A stretch of 64,000 nucleotides of DNA from Desulfitobacterium dehalogenans ATCC 51507 (GTDB lineage Bacteria; Bacillota; Desulfitobacteriia; Desulfitobacteriales; Desulfitobacteriaceae), in the NCBI RefSeq assembly GCF_000243155.2, contig NC_018017.1:434001-498000 (forward strand), read 5' to 3'. Position numbers and translations under genes: made by a program. Under the pieces are notes generated by a model. That model had not been told where the DNA came from, ran no database searches, and worked only from the letters and a program-made list of their open reading frames with translations. The stretch's first letter is position 1. The number at the start of each line of letters is the position of its first letter. This document shows, one piece after another, positions 19,002 to 51,441 of the stretch.

Positions 19002-19379
19002 ATTCTCCAGGATTTTGCTTTACACCGTTTGCTCCATAAGCTGCGCGGACAAAACTAACGCTCAAGCTCTCCGCTCCGAAAGGACCTACGCCGCTAAGTC
19101 CTTCTCTGTGGCGTGGCGGCTTGGGCGAAACCCTCATCCGGGTTTCGTCCGGCCAAATCGCTCCTCGAAAGCACTGCTTTCGCACTTGTGCTCAATGGCC
19201 GGTTGGAAACGTCCTGTTTCCAACCTTTCTCCGCTGCGTGCTTTTCGCGAAGTTTTGTTTCCGCTCGCTTAAATTCGCTCACTTTTAGAGTACGTGAGTC
19301 TCCGATCAAGAAACCTTCCAGTGGAAGGTTTCAGGAGATCACGCCCGAAGGTGCGTTGTGCGTAAAGCTACACGACCCG
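19002..19379. repeat. Structured dispersed repeat, copy A
   Basis: The gap 18892-19504 has no credible gene. From about 19002 to 19379 it matches 43626-44133 in two blocks. Block 1 starts TCTCCAGGATTTTGCTTT and includes the hairpin GGTTGGAAACG-TCC-TGTTTCCAACC (about 19201-19225). Block 2 (19292-19379) matches 86 of 88 bases of the other copy. In block 2 GTGA and TCTCC pair with GGAGA and TCAC around an inner 11-bp hairpin (GAAACCTTCCA with TGGAAGGTTTC). The high structure and lack of coding suggest a structured RNA or a non-autonomous mobile element. Resemblance to right ends of IS200/IS605-type elements is from memory and unproven. Confidence 0.7.
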
Positions 19380-39350: not shown

Positions 39351-40370
39351 ATGGAATTCCGTAACTATAGATTTAGCTTAAATAAAGCAATCTTATTTGT
39401 CTTGCTTTTTGTTTTATGCTTTACGCTGGTCGGCTATAACAAACAGAATGTTTTTCCTCAGGAAACCCCTCTAAAAACAGTTGGCGTCTTAATGGGTTCT
39501 GATCTGCGTAGTGATAAAGTTAAAGGCATGATCGAGGGATTAAAAAAATATGGCTATGAAGAAAACGTCAATATCCAGCTTAGAATAGTCAGTGCAAAAG
39601 ATAGAATTGAAGACCTTCCCAAGCTTGCCCAAGAATTGGTTCGACAAAGTCCCGATCTATTAATTGGCACGGGAGAAAGAGAGACACTTTCCCTCCAACA
39701 GGCTGCGGCAGACAGCCAAATCCCTATTGTCTTCATTGGGGTAGGTTTCGCAGAAGAACTTGGCCTTGTGAAGAGTTACGCTCAACCCGGGGGAAAGATA
39801 ACGGGAGTGGATAACTACTATTTACAATTATCGGGTAAGCGTTTGGAATATTTTAAACGTTTACTGCCCGGTGTACAAAAAGTTATGGTACTCTATGATA
39901 AGACTATCACTCCAGTGGATCCATCCATCGATTTTCTGAATCGTGTGGCATCTCAATTTGACATGACTGTGATACCGGTGGGAGTTGAGAATGAGGTCGA
40001 GGCATTAAATGCCATCAGCGGGATCGAGCCTGGGGAAGTGGATGGGGTGATGCTGCTATGCAGCCTTTTGATGGAGTCGGTGACGGATTCCATAAGCCCT
40101 CTTATTCAGGAAAAGATGCTCCCAAGCTTTGGGGTGAGTGCTAATCAGACGAAAAAAGGATTTCTGGCCTCCTATGGGATGGATTATAGAGAACAGGGAA
40201 TTCAAGCTTCCAGAATAGTCGCTAAGATACTTCAAGGACAGGATCCAGCGGCCATTCCTGTGGAAGCGCCGGCTCGTGTTGATTTTATCATCAATACCAA
40301 GGCGGCGGAGGCTTTTGAAGCTGAGATTGATCCGGCAGGTTTTGCTTGTGCGTCAGAATTCATTCGATAG
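39351..40370 (+). CDS. ABC-type substrate-binding protein, probable sensor partner
   Basis: The 339-residue protein belongs to the ABC_sub_bind family (PF04392 type), shown by VGVLMGSDLRSDKVKGMIEG, PDLLIGTGERETLSLQQ and a C-terminal ARVDFIINTKAAEAF. No permease or ATPase follows; instead a sensor kinase and response regulator do, so it probably binds a ligand for signalling. The N-terminal helix ends LVGYN where a lipobox would read LVGC, so Tyr29 replaces the lipid-bearing Cys. It may remain anchored by its uncleaved signal. GGGAGGAAC precedes the ATG. Confidence 0.85.
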   Translation: MEFRNYRFSLNKAILFVLLFVLCFTLVGYNKQNVFPQETPLKTVGVLMGSDLRSDKVKGMIEGLKKYGYEENVNIQLRIVSAKDRIEDLPKLAQELVRQSPDLLIGTGERETLSLQQAAADSQIPIVFIGVGFAEELGLVKSYAQPGGKITGVDNYYLQLSGKRLEYFKRLLPGVQKVMVLYDKTITPVDPSIDFLNRVASQFDMTVIPVGVENEVEALNAISGIEPGEVDGVMLLCSLLMESVTDSISPLIQEKMLPSFGVSANQTKKGFLASYGMDYREQGIQASRIVAKILQGQDPAAIPVEAPARVDFIINTKAAEAFEAEIDPAGFACASEFIR

Positions 40371-40405
40371 AAAACAATGCTTAAGTTGAAGGATGATTCC
40401 CATTG

Positions 40406-42244
40406 ATGAATATTCCTAAATATGCAAAGCGTTTCCAAAGCATTGCCTTTAAACTCCTCGCTTTTAGTATTATTATGTCCCTTATTCCTTTGCTTTTTCT
40501 GGGAGGATACAACTTATCACGAGCTAAAAATTATCTTTGGGAATCTGTAAAATATCAGCATTCTTATGGGACTTCCCGAGTTGTCAAAGAGATAAATTTC
40601 CTTCTGGAGGAAGCGGAGCGGGCTATAACTGTTCTCTCGGAAGCGAATGGCAATATTCTGATAGGTCATGATACCAAGGAACAGGAGCGTGTGCTCTATA
40701 GCTGTCTTACCAATCTTCCCTATGTGGAAAGAATGAGTTTGCTTGATGCAAAAGGTTATGAAATCACTGGAGTATCCCGATTCGATGTTGGGGGAAGTGT
40801 GACAATCCAGGAAAAAGATGTTGAGAACATCTTTAAATTCATCAAGGATTATCAAACCTATATCGGTCCAGTGTTGTTAGATAGTCACGGCCAGCCTTAT
40901 TTTCAATTGGCCATCCCGATTATTTTGCAGGGCAATGATGTTAAGGGTGCAATTGTGGCAGATATCAGCCTGCGTAGTGTTGTGGATCTTTTATCTAAAG
41001 TATCGGGGACTTCCGGAGCATACCTTTTCCTGGTGGATCAAGAAGGACACTTAATTGGGCATGAGGATTTCAGCCAGGTACTCTCTAATAGAAATGTACA
41101 GGCAAGCCTTCCTTTTCTGACGGAGGAAGAGGAAGAATTCACTAAGGAAAATCCTTTGGTTCGAACATATGTGTCCTATACCGGTGAAAAGGTAGTTGGC
41201 GCTTATGCGAAAGTGAGCGGAACGGATTGGGCGGTTGTTTATGAACAACCGGAAACAAAAGCCTTTTCATCCTATATCCATTTGAGAAATACCTTTGGGT
41301 TAAGCACGTTGATCTTGATGCTCCTTGTTCTGGGTATAAGTTTGTTTTTTGTAATCTATTTCCTCCGGCAGTTGGATATCTTAAAGACAGGCGTTAAGCG
41401 CATTACCTCTGGAGAAGCAGGTTTTGTGCTGCCCATTCAAAGCCAGGATGAAATAGGCGAGGTGTTAACAGCCTTTAATGAACTGAGTGAAGAACTGAAG
41501 AAGAAGCGCGAACTGGAAAGTGCCTTACGCCAGGCGGATAAAATGGCATCGGTAGGGCTATTGGCTGCAGGCATAGCTCACGAAATTAATAATCCTATGG
41601 CAACCATCTGTCTTTCCGTCGAGGAATTGCGTTATGAACTCCAAAAAACGAACTCCGATCAACCGGAGAAAGAACAAGATATAGACAGCTATCTGGATTT
41701 GATAGCCAGACAGGCTGACCGGTGCTCTCAGATAACCCAGAATCTATTGGATTTTTCTCGTCAAGAGCGTAACCAGAATAATGCCTATGACTTTTATAAT
41801 TTAAATGAGCTCATCCAAAAAGCACTGGAATTGAATCATTATATGCTGCAAAAAAAGCAAGTGCAGGTACAGTATGATTTAGATCGGACTATTCCCTTAA
41901 TTTGGGGAGATGGCCCGGGGATCCAACAGGTCATATTTAATTTTCTTTGCAATTCGGCTCAGGCTATGAAACCGGGCGGTGTTTTGAAGTTAGTGACGGA
42001 AAATGAGGCTGACTGCGTCTGCTTGAAAGTGATAGATGATGGGGAAGGCATCAACAGCGAGGATTTAAAACGAGTTTTTGAACCCTTCTTTACCACCAAA
42101 CCGCCTGGACTCGGAACCGGGTTAGGACTCGCTGTAAGCTATGGCTTAATCAAACAGGCAGGAGGGACGATTGCCATGGCAAGCAGGCTGGGGGAGGGAA
42201 CCACAGTAACGGTCAAGCTGCCGCATACGAAAGAGGTGCAATGA
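40406..42244 (+). CDS. Membrane sensor histidine kinase
   Basis: The 612-residue kinase has an N-terminal membrane helix (about 14-34), an extracytoplasmic dCache-like domain, a second helix (about 295-318), HAMP (KRITSGEAGFVLPIQSQDE region), and a HisKA domain with the phospho-acceptor in GIAHEINNPMATI. The ATPase domain has NFLCNSAQAM, DDGEGI and GTGLGLAVS. This layout is that of NtrB/DctB-like kinases that feed sigma-54 activators. It follows the binding-protein gene by 35 bp, and its stop is one base before the regulator gene. A TTG at 40403 is an alternative start. Confidence 0.94.
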   Translation: MNIPKYAKRFQSIAFKLLAFSIIMSLIPLLFLGGYNLSRAKNYLWESVKYQHSYGTSRVVKEINFLLEEAERAITVLSEANGNILIGHDTKEQERVLYSCLTNLPYVERMSLLDAKGYEITGVSRFDVGGSVTIQEKDVENIFKFIKDYQTYIGPVLLDSHGQPYFQLAIPIILQGNDVKGAIVADISLRSVVDLLSKVSGTSGAYLFLVDQEGHLIGHEDFSQVLSNRNVQASLPFLTEEEEEFTKENPLVRTYVSYTGEKVVGAYAKVSGTDWAVVYEQPETKAFSSYIHLRNTFGLSTLILMLLVLGISLFFVIYFLRQLDILKTGVKRITSGEAGFVLPIQSQDEIGEVLTAFNELSEELKKKRELESALRQADKMASVGLLAAGIAHEINNPMATICLSVEELRYELQKTNSDQPEKEQDIDSYLDLIARQADRCSQITQNLLDFSRQERNQNNAYDFYNLNELIQKALELNHYMLQKKQVQVQYDLDRTIPLIWGDGPGIQQVIFNFLCNSAQAMKPGGVLKLVTENEADCVCLKVIDDGEGINSEDLKRVFEPFFTTKPPGLGTGLGLAVSYGLIKQAGGTIAMASRLGEGTTVTVKLPHTKEVQ

Positions 42245-42245
42245 G

Positions 42246-43610
42246 ATGAAACTGCTGATCGTTGAAGATGAAGTGGATTATGCTACACTCCTGAAACAAA
42301 GGCTGGCCAGGAAAAAAATCAATATTGATTTGGCTCATACTATCGAACAGGCATTGGATTGGTTGGGTAAGGTCAGTTATGATGTGATTCTTCTGGATCA
42401 GCGTCTTCCCGACGGCGAAGGGCTGTCCTTATTAACACACGCCAAAGAGACCGATCCCTTTGTTGAAGTTGTGGTGCTCACAGGGCATGGCAGCCTGGAG
42501 ACGGCTATTCAATCCATCAAGCAAGGTGCTTATGATTATCTTACCAAGCCCTGCAATACAACCAAACTGGAATTCACCTTGACCCAAGCTTATGAAAAAA
42601 AGCGTTTGGCAGAGCAAGCGGCAGGGCTTTCCGAAGCTTTAAGACGTCAAACCGGGAGCGAACCGATTATCGGGCAAAGCCCGGAAATAAAAGGACTTAT
42701 TCATATGGTGGAAAAGGTGAAGGACAGCGAAGCAACCATTCTTGTACTGGGAGAAAGCGGCAGCGGCAAAGAGCTCATTGCCAGGTCCCTGCATTTTTGG
42801 AGTACAAGAAAGGATAAGCCTTTTCAAGCGTTAAATTGTGCGGCCTTACCGAATCAACTTGTCGAAAGTGAGTTGTTTGGTCACGAAAAGGGAGCGTTTA
42901 CGGGAGCGACAGGTGCCAAAATGGGTTTAATTGAAATCGCTGAAGGGGGAACTCTTTTTCTAGACGAAATTGCCGAGATGGAATTGAGTACTCAGGCTAA
43001 ATTGCTCAGATTGCTGGAATATGGTGAATATTTTCGTGTGGGAGCTACCCGATCCCGTAAAGTCAAGTTGCGAGTAGTCGCCGCGACCAATAAGAAACTG
43101 GAAGAAGAAGTTGCGGCTGGACGGTTTCGGGAGGATTTGTATCATCGGTTAAATGTGGTGCAAATAGAGGTACCTCCCTTACGAAATCATAGAGAGGATA
43201 TTCCTTTGCTGGCAGACTATCTACTAACCAAGAAATGCCTGAAAAATAAAACTCTGAGCCCGGAGGCTCTCGGAGTGCTGTTAGACTATGATTTTCCGGG
43301 AAATGTCAGAGAACTGGCCAATATTCTTGAACGTGGTTCGTTACTTTCCTACGGTTCAACGATCGAAGCGGAGCATTTATTTCATCCTCAAATGAAAAAG
43401 AGGATAACCATTCCTAAAGAGGGGATGGAGAGGGAGGTTCCTGACTTGGGAGACGTCGATCTTTCTCTGGCGAACTGCGAACGTCAACATATTCTAAAGG
43501 TACTGAAAATGACAGGGGGGAATAAGACAAAAGCAGCCCAGGAATTGAAAATCGGTCTTAAAACCTTGTATCGCAAAGTAAAAGAGTATGGGATCGAATC
43601 CCTGGGATAA
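42246..43610 (+). CDS. Sigma-54-dependent response regulator, NtrC family
   Basis: The 454-residue protein has a receiver domain (acidic VEDE, phospho-acceptor Asp51 in ILLDQRLPDG, KPC lysine), an AAA+ domain with Walker A GESGSGKE, the sigma-54 contact motif GAFTGA, Walker B GGTLFLDEI and an arginine-finger region, and a C-terminal Fis-type helix-turn-helix (GNKTKAAQELKIGLKTLYRK). It should activate transcription from -24/-12 promoters. The only such promoter I see nearby is 620 bp downstream at 44231-44244, before the selenoprotein operon. Confidence 0.96.
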   Translation: MKLLIVEDEVDYATLLKQRLARKKINIDLAHTIEQALDWLGKVSYDVILLDQRLPDGEGLSLLTHAKETDPFVEVVVLTGHGSLETAIQSIKQGAYDYLTKPCNTTKLEFTLTQAYEKKRLAEQAAGLSEALRRQTGSEPIIGQSPEIKGLIHMVEKVKDSEATILVLGESGSGKELIARSLHFWSTRKDKPFQALNCAALPNQLVESELFGHEKGAFTGATGAKMGLIEIAEGGTLFLDEIAEMELSTQAKLLRLLEYGEYFRVGATRSRKVKLRVVAATNKKLEEEVAAGRFREDLYHRLNVVQIEVPPLRNHREDIPLLADYLLTKKCLKNKTLSPEALGVLLDYDFPGNVRELANILERGSLLSYGSTIEAEHLFHPQMKKRITIPKEGMEREVPDLGDVDLSLANCERQHILKVLKMTGGNKTKAAQELKIGLKTLYRKVKEYGIESLG

Positions 43611-43625
43611 AAAAACCTGAAGGAG

Positions 43626-44133
43626 AATTCTCCAGGATTTTGCTTTCGACGTTCACTCCATAAGCCGCGCAGAGCAATCTAATCGCTCAAGACCTCCGCT
43701 GCGTCGGGTGCGGCTCCTGCCTCATAGCCGGTTGGAAACGTCCTGTTTCCAACCCGATTCCGCTGCTGTCTTTTTGCGAAGATTGCTTACCTGCTCGCTT
43801 AGAATTCGTTCTCTGCCTTAAAGCAAAATCCTTGGGTTGCCTTACAGGCCTGAGCAGTGTAGCTACACAGCCCCAAAGACCCGCAAGCGTAGCTTTGCGC
43901 ACAAAAGCGAACGGATTTAGCGGAGGGGCGGTCAGGTTAAGGTCGCTTTCTTAACGTAGTGTAGCCATCGGTTAACATGCAGAAAGTAGCGGGGTTTGGC
44001 GAAGCTGTTAAGTAAGCGAGTTAACCAGCCCTGGAGCTATGGAGAACGTGAGTCTCCGATCAAGAAACCTTCCAGTGGAAGGTTTCAGGAGATCACGCCC
44101 GAAGGTGCGTTGCGCGTAAAGCTACTCGACCCG
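43626..44133. repeat. Structured dispersed repeat, copy B
   Basis: This fills most of the 685-bp gap after the sigma-54 activator and matches copy A (19002-19379) in block 1 (43626-43812) and block 2 (44046-44133; 86 of 88 bases identical). Copy B has about 230 extra bases between the blocks. CCAGGATTTTGCTTT (about 43631) is complementary to AAAGCAAAATCCTTGG (about 43820), and GTAGCTTTGCGC (about 43889) to GCGCGTAAAGCTAC (44113-44126). Both pairings favour a folded RNA. No open reading frame in it looks real. It may be a mobile-element remnant. Confidence 0.7.
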
Positions 44134-44228: not shown

Positions 44229-44245
44229 TTGGCAAGCTTTTTGCA
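44229..44245 (+). promoter_or_regulatory. Sigma-54 (-24/-12) promoter
   Basis: TTGGCAAGCTTTTTGCA matches the sigma-54 consensus: GG at 44231-44232 and GC at 44243-44244, exactly 12 bp apart. Initiation would fall near 44256, 40 nt before the selenoprotein gene. A NtrC-family activator gene ends 618 bp upstream. Confidence 0.85.
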
Positions 44246-44295: not shown

Positions 44296-47200
44296 ATGAA
44301 GCGTCGTGATTTTATCAAGCTCACAGCAGCTGCGGGTATTGTCACAGCAAGCGGCCTCGGTTATGACAGAATGATTATAGCCGAACAGCCTCCAGGGTTT
44401 ATACCGAAAAAGACCAGCAGTCAGGAGGTAGAGGCAAGAATCGATTTAACGTTGGGGAGTGTGGAGGTTAACCCCAATATTTTAATGAGAAATAGTGCTT
44501 GTCTGGGTTGCTACAGTTCATGTGGAAACAGAGTAAAAATAAATAAGGAGACAGGGCTGGCAACCCGGGTTATGGGCAATCCTTATAATCCTTCCAGTGC
44601 TCAGCCCCATCTCTCCATGAAGACTTCTCTCCTGGATTCCTATCTGTCTTTCAGTACCTATCGGGACATGGGGAATGAGGGTAGAGCGGCTTTATGCGCC
44701 AGAGGAAATGCAACCTTGACAGCGCATCATGATCCCAACCGAATTTTAGTTCCCCTCAAACGCGCGGATAAGCGGGGAGAAGCCAAATGGCAGCCTATCA
44801 CTTGGGAAGAAGCGGTCAAGGAAACGGTGGAGGGGGGCACTCCATTTGCCCATCTGGGAGAAACAGCTCCTATTGAGGGGATAAAGAATGTTTATAACCC
44901 TAATGCCCCAATGGATACGTCGAATCCTGAATTAGGACCCAAATCATTTCAACTGGTTCACTTCGGAGGACGGGGAGATGGACGGACTGCCTTTGCCGGC
45001 CGTTTTACCGGTGCTTTTGGTACCCCCAATAATTTTGGCCACGGCTACACCTGAGGGGGTTCGAAAATACCTGCGGGTCAGGTACTAGCAAGCGGTCAAA
45101 ATATGAGACCGGATGTAAACCATGCGGAGTTTATCCTATATATCGGGGCCTTTCCCGGTCATAGTGGAAAGCCCATGTCTACTATTGCAAGGCAGGTCGC
45201 CAAGCAAACAGGTGAAGGGAAACTCAAAGTAGTCGTAGTCGATCCGGTTTTGTGCGGTGGTGCCATTTCTCCTGTTGGTAAAAATACGAAATGGATTCCC
45301 ATCAAACCGACAACGGATTCAGCCTTTATTATGGGAATGCTGCACTGGATTATTGATAATCAGCGCTATAATGAAGATTATTTAAGTTCTCCTCATCTGG
45401 ATGCCGCCAAGAGCAAAGGATTTGCCAGCTGGTGCAATGCCTCTCATCTTGTGATCGTGGATGAGAATCATCCCAACAACCGCAAGCTCTTGCGGGCAGA
45501 GGATTTGGGTTTGGAAGTGCCTCCCAACGCCAATCCGGCGAAAAAAGTGGATTATTTCATGGTCATCGACCCGGAGACGAACCAGCCTGTCCTCTATAAT
45601 CAAGTGTCCAGAGCTGATCTGGTCTTTGACGGGGAAGTACAGGATAAGTCCGGTGGGTCTATACGGGTTAAAACGGCTTTTGCACTTTTAAAAGAAAGTG
45701 TCTTCAGTCAAGGAATTGCTGATTACTCCAAAATATGTAAAGTGCCTGAAGAGATAATCATTGAAATAGCCAGAGAGTTTACATCCCATGGAACTAAAGT
45801 TGCGGTCGATGGAACGGGTAATACGGCCTCTGCTAATGGGTATGATATAGCCAATGCTATGCACACCCTGGCCACAATGGTGGGCTGCTATAACTTAAAG
45901 GGTGGTATGCTTAAACGCCGTGTCGCTTATAAGTCTCTTGAAGCTGGTCCCCGTTATGACTTAGGGACGGTTGCTAACGCGCCTAATATTAAAGGTAAAG
46001 GGGTTCTTATAAGCCGGACTGGAGTTCCTTATGAGAAGACGCCTGAATATAAGCAAAAGGTTGCCAAAGGGGAGAATCCTTATCCGTCAAAATTACCCTG
46101 GCATCCGATTGGTAGCGCTTCGGACAATCAGGCCCTTTTCTCCGTGGTCAACAGTTATCCATACCAAGCCAAAGTGGTGATGGTCTGGATGTCCAATCCT
46201 TTGATGACCACTCCTGCAGCAGGTCGGCAAGATATTATTGATGAGCTGAAAAAAGTAGAAAGAGTACCCCTGCTCATTGCCATTGACGCTTTTATGGGTG
46301 AAACAACTTCGTTGGCAGATTATATCATACCTGATACCACTCCTTATGAAAGTTGGGGGCTTGCCAATAGTGAGGGAAATACTTCAGAAAAGGTAACCAC
46401 CCTTCGTTGGCCTGTTGTAACACCGTTAACGGCCAAGCTCAGTGACAACCGCTATGCCTGCTACGAAAATTATATTATTGATGTAGCAAAAGCAATAGGT
46501 TTGCCGGGCTTCGGTGAGAATGCCTTAAAGGACGCGGATGGAAATACGTATGCTCTGAATACACCGGAGGATTACTTCCTGCGGGGCGTTGCCAATGTGG
46601 CTTTTGATGGTCAACCGGTTCCCGATATTACCGATGAGGAAATGAAAATTCAGGATCTGGAAAGTTACATGCAGAACTGGAAAGACTGCTTAAAACTAGA
46701 AGAACACCGCAAAGCCGCTTTTATCCTTTCCCGTGGAGGAAGGTTCGAAGAATTTGGCAAAGGTTATGAGGGAGATCGCACAAGATATCCCCATGAAGGG
46801 TGTTTTAATCTGTATGTAGAGCAGATGGCTTTAGCCAAAAACTCGTTCACAGGCAAACACTTCCAGACAGGTACTCTTGTTTATAATCCGGAGACATTAT
46901 CGGATGGCACCTCCCTTGATCAGGTTTTCCCCGAATCAGAATGGCCCTTTAAAGCCGTTTCCTATAAAGCAAAATTCAGAAGTGTGACTATGCTGGAAAA
47001 CTCGATTTTAAGGGAATTGAATCAAGCCAATAAGGTAGAGATTAATCCGGAAGATGCTGAGCAATTGGCCCTTGTATCCGGTGACAAAGTAAGACTGGTT
47101 TCCGCTACCGGAGGGGAAGCTGAGGGAATCTTACAGGTGAGACAAGGGATCGCCAGAGGTTCAGTGGGTATAGCCTATGGCTATGGTCACTGGGAGTATG

Positions 47201-47385
47201 GTGCCAAAAAATACACTTTAGGGGAGAAAGAAGTGTCAGCTTATCCCGGGTCGGGGCAAGGAGTCTTTCTTTCGGGAATCAGCTTAATCGATCCTAAAGT
47301 TAAAAATGGGATCTTCGGATTCAGTGAAATGTCCACCGGAGGAACCAGCCGTAATGGCGGTGCCTTTAAAATCCTCAAGGTGTAG
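44296..47385 (+). CDS. Selenocysteine-containing molybdopterin oxidoreductase, catalytic subunit
   Basis: The 1029-residue product is a DMSO-reductase-family catalytic subunit, close to the tetrathionate/polysulfide/selenate reductase branch. It has a twin-arginine signal (KRRDFIKLT), so it is exported folded. The 4Fe-4S motif is formed by Cys69, Cys72, Cys76 and Cys134. At codon 253 (45052-45054) an in-frame UGA interrupts the gene. The frame continues without change to 47385 with full family homology, and a SECIS-like hairpin follows the UGA. I therefore read codon 253 as selenocysteine, probably the Mo or W ligand. The chaperone, ferredoxin and membrane subunits follow. The substrate is unknown. 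Confidence 0.88.
45068..45084 (+). promoter_or_regulatory. SECIS-like hairpin after UGA
   Basis: TACCTG pairs perfectly with CAGGTA around the loop CGGGT. The loop carries the GGU typical of bacterial SECIS elements (as in E. coli fdhF) and lies about 20-24 nt after the UGA at 45052-45054, the distance SelB requires. Confidence 0.8.
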
Positions 47386-47398
47386 TGGGGGACGAAAA

Positions 47399-48094
47399 AT
47401 GAAAGATGTAATGGACTGGACAAGGGATCGTTTTCACTCCTATGCCTTTTTTGCCAGTCTCCTCGTGGAGGAACCAACACTGGAAAAATGGCTCACCATT
47501 CAAAAACTCTCAAGCTCATTGTCAGGTGAGCTTTTAGAGGATAAGAACGGCATAAGGATTCCAGAAGAGGCACAGGCAACAATGGAGAGACTTCGCCAGG
47601 ATTACTATGATTGCTTTTTTGTTCCGATGTCCGGGAAATATGTTCCTCCTTATGAATCGGCCCTGCGATGTTTTAAACAAAAGCCCAAACCGTCCTTCGG
47701 AAAGATCAACACCTCTCTGACAGCTCAGATCAAGCAGCAATATGAGTTAACCGGGTTTGATCCCTATCGCCTGGAGCTGTTTTCCCCTCTTAAGAATATT
47801 CCCTTGGCAGACCATGTCGGGTTTGAATTAGCGTATATGGCTTATTTATGCCAACAGGAACATGAGGCCAGAAAAGAAGCACGGGAGGGCAATGCCGAAA
47901 GATGGCTTGAGATTCAAAAGGAGTTCATGGCTGAACATCTCTTGATGTGGATTCCCAGTTTAGCCGAGGCTTTAAGGACCCTGGAAAACGGTTTTTATTC
48001 TCAGGCAATCAAGACCCTGGAGATTTGGCTCCATGAAGATGATCAAGATGTAAAAAATTATTTTAGCAGAGGAGGAATCTGCGTTGAGTGCTAA
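47399..48094 (+). CDS. TorD/DmsD-like molybdoenzyme chaperone
   Basis: The 231-residue, mostly helical cytoplasmic protein is the likely dedicated chaperone that binds the Tat signal of the preceding catalytic subunit and guards it until cofactor insertion. The TorD-type signature is visible in DHVGFELAYMAYLC, and a second family block in FMAEHLLMWIPSLAEAL. The frame opens at 47306 inside the catalytic gene, but ATG 47399 after GGGGGACG gives the family start. Its stop overlaps the ferredoxin subunit start by 11 bp. Confidence 0.85.
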   Translation: MKDVMDWTRDRFHSYAFFASLLVEEPTLEKWLTIQKLSSSLSGELLEDKNGIRIPEEAQATMERLRQDYYDCFFVPMSGKYVPPYESALRCFKQKPKPSFGKINTSLTAQIKQQYELTGFDPYRLELFSPLKNIPLADHVGFELAYMAYLCQQEHEARKEAREGNAERWLEIQKEFMAEHLLMWIPSLAEALRTLENGFYSQAIKTLEIWLHEDDQDVKNYFSRGGICVEC

Positions 48095-48689
48095 TTCGGA
48101 ACCGCGCTATGGTATGGTCATCGACTTACGCCGTTGTGTCGGATGTCATTCCTGTACTGTCAGCTGTAAAATGGAGAATAATATACCGGAAGGTGTGTAT
48201 CGTTCCTGGGTTATTGAAGGAGACAAAGGTATCTACCCTAATGTGACGAGAGTGAAACTTCCCCGCCTGTGCAATCAGTGCCAAGATGCTCCTTGTCAAA
48301 CCGTATGCCCGGTCAACGCGACTCATAAGGATGAGGGAGGCATCATTGTCATTGATCCTGACAAATGTATCGGCTGCCGCTACTGCATTGCGGCCTGCCC
48401 CTATGATGCCCGTTTCCTGAATCCGGAAACAGGAATGGCGGAAAAATGCGATTTGTGCATCGGACGGATTAAGGCAGGACTTATGCCGGCCTGTGTCTCC
48501 AACTGCATTGCTCATGCCCGTATTTTTGGAGATTTAAATGATCCTGACAGTGAAATTACTCGTTTGCTTGCTGAACATCCGACGCAAGTCTTGCGCTCAG
48601 AGCTGGGTACTCAGCCCAGTGTTTTCTATATCGGCTTAGACGAGGCCTTTGACGGAATAAGCCTAAAGGATTTGGAAGGGAGGAAGTAG
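48084..48689 (+). CDS. Four-cluster ferredoxin subunit, NrfC/PsrB type
   Basis: The 201-residue electron-transfer subunit carries sixteen cysteines in four 4Fe-4S motifs: CVGCHSCTVSCKMENN, CNQCQDAPCQTVCP, CIGCRYCIAACPYDA and CDLC...CVSNC. It has no signal peptide and would be exported bound to the Tat-dependent catalytic subunit. It starts with TTG 48084 after GGAGGAAT, overlapping the chaperone gene. It links the NrfD-type quinol oxidase subunit to the Mo centre. Confidence 0.94.
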   Translation: MSANSEPRYGMVIDLRRCVGCHSCTVSCKMENNIPEGVYRSWVIEGDKGIYPNVTRVKLPRLCNQCQDAPCQTVCPVNATHKDEGGIIVIDPDKCIGCRYCIAACPYDARFLNPETGMAEKCDLCIGRIKAGLMPACVSNCIAHARIFGDLNDPDSEITRLLAEHPTQVLRSELGTQPSVFYIGLDEAFDGISLKDLEGRK

Positions 48690-48690
48690 A

Positions 48691-49713
48691 ATGGATTTTT
48701 CCTTTGTCTATGAAATACAGCATCACGCTGCCTTCGGTCCTCTCATCGTGCTCTATTTCTTTCTGGCAGGGCTAAGTGCAGGCTTGTTTTTAATCTCAGC
48801 GTTAAGTACGGTTTTTGGCTGGCAACCTGTCAAACCTTTAGCCAAACCTGCGGCGCTCATGGCCTTGGCAGCCTTGGTTCCAGGGCTGCTCGCCTTAGTT
48901 GTGGATCTGGGCCGGCCCTTCAGAGCCCTCTATTTATTTTTTAATGTTAATCCCACCTCCATCATGTCTTGGGGGTCTTTCATCCTCTTGTTCTATGGAA
49001 TTGTCTGTGTGCCCTATATTTGGTTCTTGTGGCAGGGCCAAGAGAAAAGAGTGAAGCTTTTCGGTAAAATAGGTGCCGTTTTGGCAGTCTGCCTAGGGCT
49101 ATACACCGGCTTCCTCTTAGCAGTCGTTCCCGGCAAACCCCTTTGGAATTCCGCTTTGCTGCCGGTTCTGTTTTTAGTATCCGGCTGTGTTGCGGCTTTG
49201 AGCTTAATCAGCCTGACGAAGAAAGTGTTCACTCAAGAGATGGTTCCCGGGGCCGACTATGAAAGTGCCCTGCACACCTTAAAAGTGTGGTTTGTGGTGC
49301 TGGAAGTTTGCCTTGTCTTCTTCCATCTGCTCACCGTCTTTTTCTTGGGAGCCCAAGGAGAGCTGACGGTCATGAATCTTCTGGCAGGGGAAAAGGCCTT
49401 TACTTTCTGGGGAATTCAAATTGCGGTGGGTATCGTATTGCCCCTGATCCTTCTTTCCCTCAAACAATCTTCCGCGACCTTAGGTCTGGTGGGGGTATTC
49501 AGTCTGGCAGGGGTTTTTGCTCTCCGTTATAATTTTGTGTTCGGAGGACAGGAATTGCCGACGGTGGGAACACAGCTCTATCATCAGGGTGGAGGGATGG
49601 AGTGGCTTTCCGTAATCGTTCTTCTCGCCTTGGGAGTAGTCTTGCTCTTCGTGCTGCCTTATCTGAGCAGAAGAGTATTCCACTCGACGTCTTCTAAAAG
49701 TATTAGTAGTTGA
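48691..49713 (+). CDS. NrfD/PsrC-type membrane subunit
   Basis: The 340-residue, very hydrophobic protein has about eight to ten membrane helices and begins with the NrfD pattern HHAAFGPLIVLYFFLAGLSAG. VVDLGRPFRALYLFFNVNPTSIMSWG is the characteristic block of this family. It should exchange electrons with the menaquinone pool and pass them to the ferredoxin subunit. It starts one base after that subunit's stop and ends the operon. It contains no haem-ligand pattern I can recognise. Confidence 0.93.
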   Translation: MDFSFVYEIQHHAAFGPLIVLYFFLAGLSAGLFLISALSTVFGWQPVKPLAKPAALMALAALVPGLLALVVDLGRPFRALYLFFNVNPTSIMSWGSFILLFYGIVCVPYIWFLWQGQEKRVKLFGKIGAVLAVCLGLYTGFLLAVVPGKPLWNSALLPVLFLVSGCVAALSLISLTKKVFTQEMVPGADYESALHTLKVWFVVLEVCLVFFHLLTVFFLGAQGELTVMNLLAGEKAFTFWGIQIAVGIVLPLILLSLKQSSATLGLVGVFSLAGVFALRYNFVFGGQELPTVGTQLYHQGGGMEWLSVIVLLALGVVLLFVLPYLSRRVFHSTSSKSISS

Positions 49714-49825: not shown

Positions 49826-49922
49826 GGGGACGAATGGATTCCGGTGGATTCTGCGGACTTCAAATCCGTTATCGGGCGGATGATCCGGCCGAGGTAGGTT
49901 CGACTCCTACACGTTCCCGCCA
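49826..49922 (+). tRNA. selC: Selenocysteine tRNA, anticodon TCA
   Basis: The 97-nt sequence includes an encoded CCA and folds as a tRNA-Sec. The anticodon TCA (49860-49862) sits in the loop CTTCAAA on a stem GCGGA/TCCGT. A long variable arm is present (CGGGCGGAT with ATCCGGCCG, one-base loop). The T arm GTAGG-TTCGACT-CCTAC is followed by the acceptor strand CGTTCCC, the discriminator G and CCA. The eighth acceptor pair appears mismatched. The anticodon reads UGA, matching the in-frame UGA in the oxidoreductase gene 4.8 kb upstream. selA, selB and selD are not in the window. Confidence 0.95.
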
Positions 49923-49949
49923 AAAAACTATCCGAGTTTAAAAAAATAG

Positions 49950-49992
49950 GACACGAGGTTAGCAAAAAAACCGTTTGCCTCGTGTTCTTTTT
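49950..49992 (+). terminator. Terminator of selC
   Basis: ACACGAGG (49951-49958) pairs with CCTCGTGT (49978-49985) around a loop rich in A, followed by TCTTTTT. Confidence 0.85.
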
Positions 49993-50158
49993 AAATATTG
50001 GAGAATGAAAGATCCCTGCATTTATTAACGGTATATTTGTGGTAAGATACAGATAGTTGATGATTGTTCGCTAGCTGGCAGTCTGATTTCGAATAAATAA
50101 CTAAAGGCGGGTTGGAAGGATGGCGGGTCCCACTTTAGCAATGATGGAGGGGTTTTAA

Positions 50159-50218
50159 ATGACTTTAGCAGATCTTGCCCTTGCCGGTTTAGGATATATG
50201 TTGGCAAGTGCAGTATGA
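50159..50218 (+). CDS. Possible 19-residue leader ORF
   Basis: ATG 50159 opens a 19-codon frame encoding a hydrophobic peptide (MTLADLALAGLGYMLASAV). It has a strong ribosome-binding site, GGAGGGG at 50146-50152, and its stop overlaps the start of the broken MFS gene (ATGA at 50215-50218). It may have coupled translation of that transporter or been a tiny partner peptide. I know no family for it. Confidence 0.4.
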   Translation: MTLADLALAGLGYMLASAV

Positions 50219-51301
50219 ATGAGCCTGAGAAGAAATTCCATTATGGCTGGTTGATTGTTTTCGGTTGTATGATTATGGTGTTTTGCTGTGTAGGTTTGGC
50301 TATTAACGTCTTTTCGATCTTTGTCACACCTTTGGCTGAGGAGTTAGACCTGACGAAAATCCAGGTTTCCACGGTTATGTCCATGATCAGCGTCGGCAGT
50401 ATTTTAATTTTAGTGTTCAGTGGGAGAATCTATCGAGTTATAGTACCAGAATAGCTATGTTTATTTTTGGTTTGTGCATGGCTGAAGGTTTTCTTCTTTT
50501 TGCCTGGTGCAAAACATTGCTTCAGTGTTATGCGGCTGCTTTGTTGGTGGGAATTGGTTCCGGCGGCGGAGGCATGGTTCCTGCATCACTCTTAATTACC
50601 CGCTGGTTCAGTACCAAGAGAGGAATTGCCATAAGCCTCAGCGCTATGGGCTCCGGTATTGGGAGTATGATTTTTCCCCCTATAGTAGCCTATTGGATTG
50701 AGGGCTTTGGCCTGGAAAGGGCCTTTATATTTTGAGGTTAAAGGGATGACTTTCGCAGAAACTCTGCGTTCGAAAAGATATTGGAGATTGATAATTACGG
50801 TACTTTCTGTAGGAATTATGATAGGTCCTATCAATAATCATCTTCCCTCTTTTCTGATCTCTATCGGTTATGATCCTATATTTACTGCAGTGGTATTTTC
50901 ACTTTTCGGGGGTGCATTGATCGTCGGCAAGCTTTTGGCAGGGGCGATCATCGACCGCTTTGGGATCATTGCTACCAATTGGTATTTGTTTATTATGTGG
51001 GGGTTGGCCTTAGCCTCCGCCTTTTTAGTGGATGGAAGTCAGGCCAAAGCCTATTTATTAACGATCCTAATCGGTTTGGGCAACCCGATTCTTGTTAAAA
51101 TATTCTCAACCTTAACTCCTTATGATATTCCTTGGTGGTGCCATAGGTAATTCATTAGTGGGTTTTATGGCTGATGTAACAGGAACCTATCTTACGACTT
51201 ATGGTGTTTTTGCTGTGGCTAATGTGCTGTTAATTATGCTTTTGCAGATTATTTTCAAGAAGAAGCGGCTTCACACAAATTTAAAGATAAGTAACACATA
51301 A
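50215..51301 (+). pseudogene. Broken MFS transporter
   Basis: The pieces together match an OFA-type major facilitator protein, but the gene is disrupted at least three times. The first piece (50215-50454) ends after GRIYRV; a shift restores TRIAMFIFGLCMAEG. The second piece ends after GFGLERAFIF at about 50733, and the next frame begins EVKGMTFAETLRSKRYW, so most of the central loop and a helix are deleted. A last shift near 51140 is needed to read GAIGNSLVGFMADVTG to the stop at 51301. No intact product is possible. It lies directly after selC. Confidence 0.85.
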
Positions 51302-51441
51302 CTACTTATATAGTTGGGGTGGCCATTATGACTTTTGGGGAACCTTCTATTATTTTACTCCAAGATATGGCATAATATTAGGAAATTCTCATTTTCTGGT
51401 TGTGAGAGGGCAGCTTAATATTCTATATAAGGAGACCCAAT

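Follow-up and report, generated by a model that had tools for sequence, protein, structure and literature searches.

Among the described systems closest to the one considered here is the tetrathionate reductase TtrABC of Salmonella and Citrobacter, which is controlled by TtrRS, and whose genes stand in the order B-C-A with a signal for twin-arginine translocation (Tat) on the B subunit (Duval 2008, PMC2500031). In published tables TtrA, SrdA and the archaeal arsenate reductase are listed with a cysteine (Cys) ligand, and formate and formylmethanofuran dehydrogenases with selenocysteine (Sec) (Wells 2020, Wells 2023), in agreement with the claim of a first-pass annotation of the present DNA that the tetrathionate/polysulfide/selenate branch normally has Cys. 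The accessible parts of a 2026 inventory of 119 selenoprotein families or subfamilies (PMC13188914) name no TtrA; the 'tetrathionate reductase family octaheme c-type cytochrome' given there is a different protein, a cytochrome. Term searches of deep-Sep 2025, Peng 2016, Zhang 2006 and a 2022 review gave passages in which no Sec TtrA-like family appears; in such passages D. hafniense is credited with three selenoproteins (Zhang 2006), and two of its genes are called TtrA, with Sec not mentioned there (Kim 2012). Our literature search, which left most subscription journals and supplements outside, found no Sec TtrA, and such a protein may already be in print or in RefSeq annotation. Here we describe a ttrA-like gene with an in-frame TGA in a 64,000-nucleotide stretch of Desulfitobacterium dehalogenans ATCC 51507 (assembly GCF_000243155.2, contig NC_018017.1, positions 434,001 to 498,000; hereafter the window). 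We consider it very probable that the gene belongs to a genuine selenoenzyme operon, in which UGA 253 would be decoded as Sec, the selenium would ligate molybdenum, and the product would be exported and would reduce an oxyanion or polythionate with electrons from quinol.

The gene spans 44296–47385 on the forward strand of the window, and the sole interruption of its frame is the TGA at 45052–45054 (forward strand), which is codon 253. Translation with Sec at this position yields a catalytic molybdoenzyme subunit of 1029 residues, which bears out the description of the frame in the first-pass annotation as open but for this codon. The homology to the molybdoenzyme family that had been claimed for both sides was recovered by profile and alignment comparisons, and is in fact continuous across the TGA. 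The N-terminus, MKRRDFIK, includes the twin-arginine motif RRDFIK and looks like a twin-arginine signal, and molybdopterin and dinucleotide-binding domains were detected in the product with Pfam. The top NCBIfam model is TtrA (NF011567), with 756 bits over residues 56–1026, consistent with the proposed terminal-reductase family, though the curated cut-off is 1750 bits and the annotated Citrobacter TtrA reaches 2076. The ArrA and PhsA models gave 104 bits (cut-off 1600) and 155 bits (cut-off 694), respectively. Given that Sec within the superfamily is usually found in formate dehydrogenases and that one of these is encoded in the window genome, a formate dehydrogenase could have been misread as a terminal reductase. 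As is proposed for the present protein, FdhA has Sec as its Mo/W ligand at the equivalent place, directed by a selenocysteine insertion sequence (SECIS). However, the formate dehydrogenase alpha model scored just 89.9 bits (cut-off 666) as against the 756 bits of TtrA. FdhA is further distinguished by formate chemistry and the motif UHxP (given for the family in PMC13188914), and the enzyme of the same genome accordingly reads TGA then His-Ala-Pro; here the motif is U-G-G, in a lineage of oxidised-acceptor reductases, with Gly (GGN) following the TGA in all 13 Sec genes introduced below. Moreover, the nearest structures are ArrA and PhsA/PsrA by sequence, and ArrA followed by perchlorate reductase and then others of the superfamily by fold. 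A misread formate dehydrogenase is thus scarcely credible.

Alignment placed residue 253 in register with the Cys of HSSVC in ArrA and of SVSLC in a sequence that we take to be the Thermus polysulfide/thiosulfate reductase (PhsA/PsrA); both of these Cys are presumably Mo ligands. With U written as C, the column is invariant in an alignment of 25 members (SrdA was not among them), which favors the ligand position that had been suggested for this residue. Four N-terminal Cys (69, 72, 76 and 134) are likewise invariant and fit a [4Fe-4S] site, pointing to a probable role in cluster binding. The predicted fold (mean predicted local distance difference test score, pLDDT, 86.5) matched ArrA best in the PDB, with a template modelling (TM) score of 0.54 by query and 0.67–0.68 by target. 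Thus, ArrA and PsrA/PhsA share the superfamily fold and the ligand column with the Sec protein, but both have Cys in that column and their models score far lower than TtrA.

To survey the codon at this position, the protein was searched in overlapping sets of 61, 398, 395, 18, 291 and 249 genomes, along with two loci from named genome contigs; for all of these sets but the first, matches were listed only at E 1e-200 or better, and weaker homologues in those sets were unseen. The tree and codon counts cover 44 genes, and exclude three matches that were given no locus and went unexamined, two Cys homologues (in L039 and L073) and the duplicates L047 (of L060) and L072 (of L048). A TGA exactly at codon 253 was found in 13 homologous genes from 12 genomes, and TGC or TGT, coding for Cys, in the other 31. 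The first-pass annotation had named a sense codon other than Cys, together with a lack of SECIS covariation, as findings that would speak against Sec; no such codon occurs in the 31 genes, and the hairpin does covary in the TGA genes, as detailed below. The least similar of the Sec genes has 42% identity, the matched stretches hold no further stop, and the genomes concerned span at least two phyla, as represented by Desulfuromusa kysingii (Thermodesulfobacteriota) and the metagenome-assembled genome (MAG) UBA1047 (Bacillota), with three in the phylum of the window, one in its genus and five in the class or order of UBA1047. A TGA within a second homologue of genome G011 was set aside, because the ligand residue of this homologue is Cys and the TGA lies elsewhere. 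An in-frame UGA conserved where homologues have Cys is one mark of a bacterial selenoprotein gene, and the present family displays it.

These counts bear directly on the alternative that the TGA truly ends translation, arose as a sequencing error or marks a gene in early decay, in which case the operon would be dying or the frame would encode two separate proteins. Without recoding the frame does split into two open reading frames, 44296–45054 (252 amino acids) and 45103–47385 (760 amino acids), and the hairpin downstream of the TGA is unremarkable when viewed in isolation. Yet the same codon is TGA in all 13 of the gene copies described above, and constraint is alike on the two sides of it. 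In the comparison with the Sec gene of a second Desulfitobacterium genome (G002), 236 of 252 residues before the TGA and 700 of 776 after it are identical; the latter stretch thus retains 90% identity, and its DNA changes are mostly at third positions (214, as against 84 at first and second positions). We therefore regard a stop or lesion as highly improbable. A maximum-likelihood tree separated the 13 Sec rows from all others by a branch supported at 100/100, which corresponds to a single change of state. A further 100/100 branch unites the Sec clade with the Cys paralogues and the annotated Citrobacter TtrA; the set lacks SrdA and the archaeal enzymes, and its Citrobacter row is long-branched and of odd composition. 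Read most simply, the tree points to Sec having been gained inside a lineage with Cys, although it is midpoint-rooted and does not prove the gain. The most divergent Sec member (42% identity; L113 5505–8576, L108) splits first from the Sec clade on a long branch. On contig 24 of genome G1361 (L113), a single set of binding protein, kinase and regulator genes lies between two Sec TtrA-like operons, which show 57% and 42% identity to the query. The diversity of Sec TtrA-like proteins may be larger than that sampled here.

The hairpin TACCTG-CGGGT-CAGGTA, which had been proposed as a SECIS, was found where it had been placed, at 45068–45084 on the forward strand, beginning 13 bases 3' of the TGA; its stem pairs 45068–45073 (TACCTG) with 45079–45084 (CAGGTA) around the loop CGGGT (45074–45078). 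A hairpin just 3' of the UGA with a G near the start of the loop is what is expected of a bacterial SECIS, and this element fits that description. All 13 Sec genes fold into a hairpin in the stretch after the TGA. Of the 78 cells that these genes have in the common register, 69 are paired, as against 17–37 of 78 when one arm is slid by 1–4 bases, and 82 of 186 in the same register of the Cys genes. Within the Sec genes there are both-sided exchanges of T-A for C-G at pair 1, A-T for G-C at pair 2 and T-A for C-G at pair 5. The mean fold stability is -9.1 kcal/mol for Sec stretches and -3.8 kcal/mol for Cys stretches (Mann-Whitney p = 5.6e-5, with relatedness ignored).

The genome that contains the window (a single contig of 4,321,753 bases) was found to encode selA, selB, selD and two tRNA-Sec genes, and hence has the complete set of selA, selB, selC and selD. 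One tRNA-Sec gene clusters with selA, selB and the TGA-interrupted formate dehydrogenase. Two selD genes exceed the cut-off (G000:C1:1035831-1036754 and 4000739-4001641), one with and one without an in-frame TGA. A third tRNA-Sec match above the cut-off was rejected, as it reads as a tRNA-Ser. Among the Sec genomes, tRNA-Sec was present in seven of the eight searched for it, four being unsearched; the eighth, a 1.9-Mb MAG (G448), gave no match. This last case could be accommodated if the UGA were read by near-cognate suppression, with Trp, Cys or another residue inserted in place of Sec. However, the alternative residue at this position is Cys in 31 of 31 genes and never Trp, the genome of the window has the full Sec machinery, the hairpin covaries in the TGA genes, and a tRNA-Sec gene adjoins the operon itself. 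Near-cognate suppression accordingly has very little to commend it. Taken together, the TGA in every member of the clade, the covarying SECIS, and selA, selB, selD and the two tRNA-Sec genes uphold the original reading of the codon, and we infer that Sec is present in the protein.

Beyond what the first-pass annotation had pointed out, the locus contains a linked tRNA-Sec gene, a sigma-54 promoter-like site and regulator genes. The tRNA-Sec, with a UCA anticodon, lies at 49826–49922 (forward strand), 112 bases 3' of the nrfD-like gene described below, and was recognized by Rfam RF01852 (67.1 bits) and ARAGORN. The same placement beside the Sec gene is seen in G002. The linked copies of the two genomes are 94.8% identical to each other and 88–91% identical to the main copies of the genus; in a comparison of 35 tRNA-Sec genes, identity to those outside the genus did not exceed 69.4%, which indicates that the linked gene is a within-genus duplicate. 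Relative to the main copies there are 10 differences in the window genome and 11 in G002, with 6 and 7 respectively in stems; these leave 30 of 30 stem pairs intact and include one two-sided change, and the comparison thereby indicates that this second tRNA-Sec is under constraint. In a survey of 32 genomes, at least one strong tRNA-Sec match was found in 30 and two in five, namely the window genome and G002, where the extra copy is beside the Sec gene, and three others of the same family, perhaps Desulfosporosinus. The latter (L101, L102 and L103) were rejected as a parallel, as their extra tRNA-Sec directly adjoins selB in all three; in L101 the tRNA-Sec and selB are followed by a thioredoxin-reductase-like gene, genes for component C of glycine/sarcosine/betaine reductase, and selA.

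Duplicate tRNA-Sec genes have been recorded previously. Table 3 of Santesmasses et al. 2017 (PMC5330540) gives two for D. dehalogenans ATCC 51507 and for D. hafniense DP7 and Y51, and the duplicates in it show compensatory changes; their biological significance is called unclear. The passages available from that paper do not state the surroundings of the second copy, which here follows a Sec-reductase operon. The linked gene may be no more than a neutral duplicate that came to lie next to the operon and is either expressed independently or silent, and this we consider quite possible, if somewhat short of an even chance. In its favor, the number of tRNA-Sec genes was not correlated with that of selenoproteins in Santesmasses 2017 (PMC5330540), both genomes retain 5' of the tRNA a TATGAT that could serve as a separate promoter for it, and the sequence 3' of the tRNA in G002 differs and folds differently. 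Against it stand the intact stem pairs despite the differences from the main copies, the same location in two genomes, and the transcriptional context: the 112-base gap has no run of four T, while an intrinsic-terminator-like hairpin followed by TTTT (49948–49988, forward strand; -20.4 kcal/mol) lies 3' of the tRNA. A terminator scan listed none, the loop of this hairpin being too long for that scan. Further 3', at 50151–51400, is a transporter-like gene that is broken across three frames and apparently a pseudogene; its G002 homologue is also split between frames. As a tentative alternative to neutral duplication, the tRNA-Sec could be co-transcribed with the selenoenzyme from the sigma-54 promoter, such that an extracellular acceptor would induce both, and its diverged acceptor and D stems might tune it for high-level or preferential decoding of the UGA of the operon.

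Upstream of the Sec gene, and on the same strand, are genes for a periplasmic binding protein that is a probable signal-sensing partner (39351–40370; ABC_sub_bind, PF04392, 150 bits with Pfam), a sensor histidine kinase with dCache and HAMP domains (40403–42244; Pfam), and an NtrC-type sigma-54 response regulator with Response_reg, Sigma54_activat and HTH_8 domains (42246–43610). Downstream, again on the forward strand, are a TorD-like maturation chaperone (47399–48094; PF02613, 72.8 bits; its start is an internal ATG chosen by hand), a TtrB-like ferredoxin subunit with a TTG start (48084–48689; NF011569 TtrB, 245.5 bits, below the 416 cut-off) and an NrfD-type membrane subunit, the presumed quinol oxidase and anchor (48691–49713; PF03916, 136.5 bits). 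Homologues of the upstream trio adjoin the Sec genes in 8 of the 12 Sec genomes (the window genome, G002, G291, G988, G1361, G1314, G1308 and G1315), and none was detected in the sequence read around the Sec genes of G351, G421, G447 and G448, the last of these being a 7-kb contig. In G988 (L074 2269–5630), the Sec gene is preceded by genes whose translations resemble a molybdate transporter and a MobA-like protein.

A sigma-54 (-24/-12) promoter-like site, TGGCAAGCTTTTTGCA, at 44230–44245 (forward strand) begins 66 bases 5' of the start codon and matches 10 of 11 consensus positions. The scan used the generally known sigma-54 consensus and covered 12 of the 13 Sec genes, as L048 begins inside its gene; the start of the gene in L104 was estimated. 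All nine Sec genes with an NtrC-type neighbour have a motif with 10 of 11 consensus positions 56–73 bases 5' of the start, and the window genome has a sigma-54 gene. When the 250 upstream bases were shuffled, 2 of 1000 shuffles held a site as good. However, it should be noted that sites of this quality are not uncommon over 64 kb (the whole window has 6 with at most one mismatch, as against 2.3 expected), and hence the weight of this site rests on its position and conservation. The gap between the NtrC-type and ttrA-like genes is 685 bases in the window and 188 in G002. An interspersed repeat of about 500 bases (43611–44133) lies between the regulator gene and the sigma-54 site, with similar stretches at 19002–19379, L013, L016 and L070, and a segment of it shares 78% identity with sequence at the locus of the Cys paralogue discussed below.

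Comparison thus establishes, at the level of sequence, a putative Sec codon conserved within one clade, a covarying SECIS, the probable ligand position, and conserved regulators and promoter. Several observations weigh against a selenoenzyme operon of the form proposed. The hairpin of the window on its own is unremarkable, as, out of 1000 sequences recoded synonymously for its peptide, 368 fold as stably; the count exceeded 100 of 1000 in 6 of the 13 Sec genes and was low for some others. Nor are the hairpin codons unusually free of synonymous change between the window gene and G002: 1 of 8 codons has changed, and 56 of 460 comparable 7-codon windows are without any such change. Given these two results, the case for the hairpin rests on comparison and not on a single-gene argument. 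In the common register the Sec gene in L051 forms only 3 of 6 pairs and pairs in a shifted register instead, and the Cys gene L021 reaches 5 of 6. To these may be added the lack of a tRNA-Sec match in G448. The sigma-54 motif is missing at 3 of the 12 Sec genes examined, all without an NtrC-type neighbour, where the best site matches 5 of 11 positions. NrfD-type homologues (over 60 bits to that of the window) appeared at the locus of the Cys paralogue and, among the Sec loci, solely at the two of Desulfitobacterium; electron entry may therefore differ outside this genus. Finally, a linked tRNA-Sec was absent from the sequence read around the 11 Sec genes that are not from Desulfitobacterium, and this tRNA is therefore not needed for the enzyme class.

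The locus resembles TtrABC/TtrRS in its best family model, which covers nearly the full length, in its shared, fully supported branch with Citrobacter TtrA, and in having two-component control and ferredoxin and quinol-type subunits. It differs in that the ligand is Cys there and apparently Sec here, in sharing 35% identity with the annotated TtrA that a plasmid search supplied as a yardstick, and in scoring below the TtrA cut-off. The gene order is A-TorD-B-C as opposed to B-C-A, and the B protein, which starts MSANSEPRYG, lacks the twin-arginine motif that would correspond to the Tat signal on B. Control here would be of the sigma-54/NtrC type, with a separate binding protein. A closer counterpart is a 42% identical Cys paralogue in the same genome (L037, C1:4169963-4173052), whose neighbours also include TorD, TtrB, NrfD, binding protein, kinase and NtrC genes, with a sigma-54 motif 97 bases before the start. 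This paralogue has Cys at the ligand position, forms 4 of 6 pairs in the SECIS register, and has no tRNA gene in the 19 kb read.

Based on these features, the system could operate as follows. An extracellular acceptor would be sensed by the binding protein and the kinase, and the NtrC-type regulator would then open the sigma-54 promoter. SelB and Sec-tRNA-Sec would decode UGA 253, guided by the hairpin 13 bases downstream, such that selenium would directly ligate the Mo of the bis(molybdopterin guanine dinucleotide) (bis-MGD) cofactor where TtrA, ArrA and Psr have a Cys sulfur. The enzyme would be loaded with cofactor with the help of the TorD-like chaperone and then exported by Tat. Electrons are likely to pass from menaquinol by way of the NrfD-type and ferredoxin subunits to the Mo-Se center, and from there to an oxidised sulfur compound or an oxyanion. 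As a first guess, to which we would give about an even chance, the substrate is tetrathionate or another polythionate, with selenate or arsenate next. In Desulfitobacterium the transcript probably continues into the duplicated tRNA-Sec before terminating, in which case the supply of the tRNA would rise with demand.

A Sec-ligated TtrA-like reductase is absent from the inventory and tables cited above, in the parts accessible, and the 13 TGA homologues, their clade and the covariation of the hairpin are new to this study. In those same sources, formate and formylmethanofuran dehydrogenases are so far the only members of the Mo/W bis-MGD superfamily listed with Sec ligands. The trait is probably more frequent than the counts suggest, because a UGA of this kind is usually taken for a stop by annotation programs, as noted in the consulted part of Wells 2023. 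The finding also bears on the claim, as given in the available passages of Wells 2020, that Sec is the ancestral ligand and has been repeatedly lost, since a gain from Cys is the simplest reading here. The presence of a Sec clade beside Cys relatives, and of a Cys paralogue in the same cell, offers a matched test of the effect of selenium in a respiratory molybdoenzyme. Likewise, the linked gene supplies a testable reason for the duplication of tRNA-Sec. If the tRNA is indeed induced along with the reductase, this would amount to a substrate-induced capacity of the genetic code, and would explain the tRNA-Sec duplication whose significance was called unclear in 2017.

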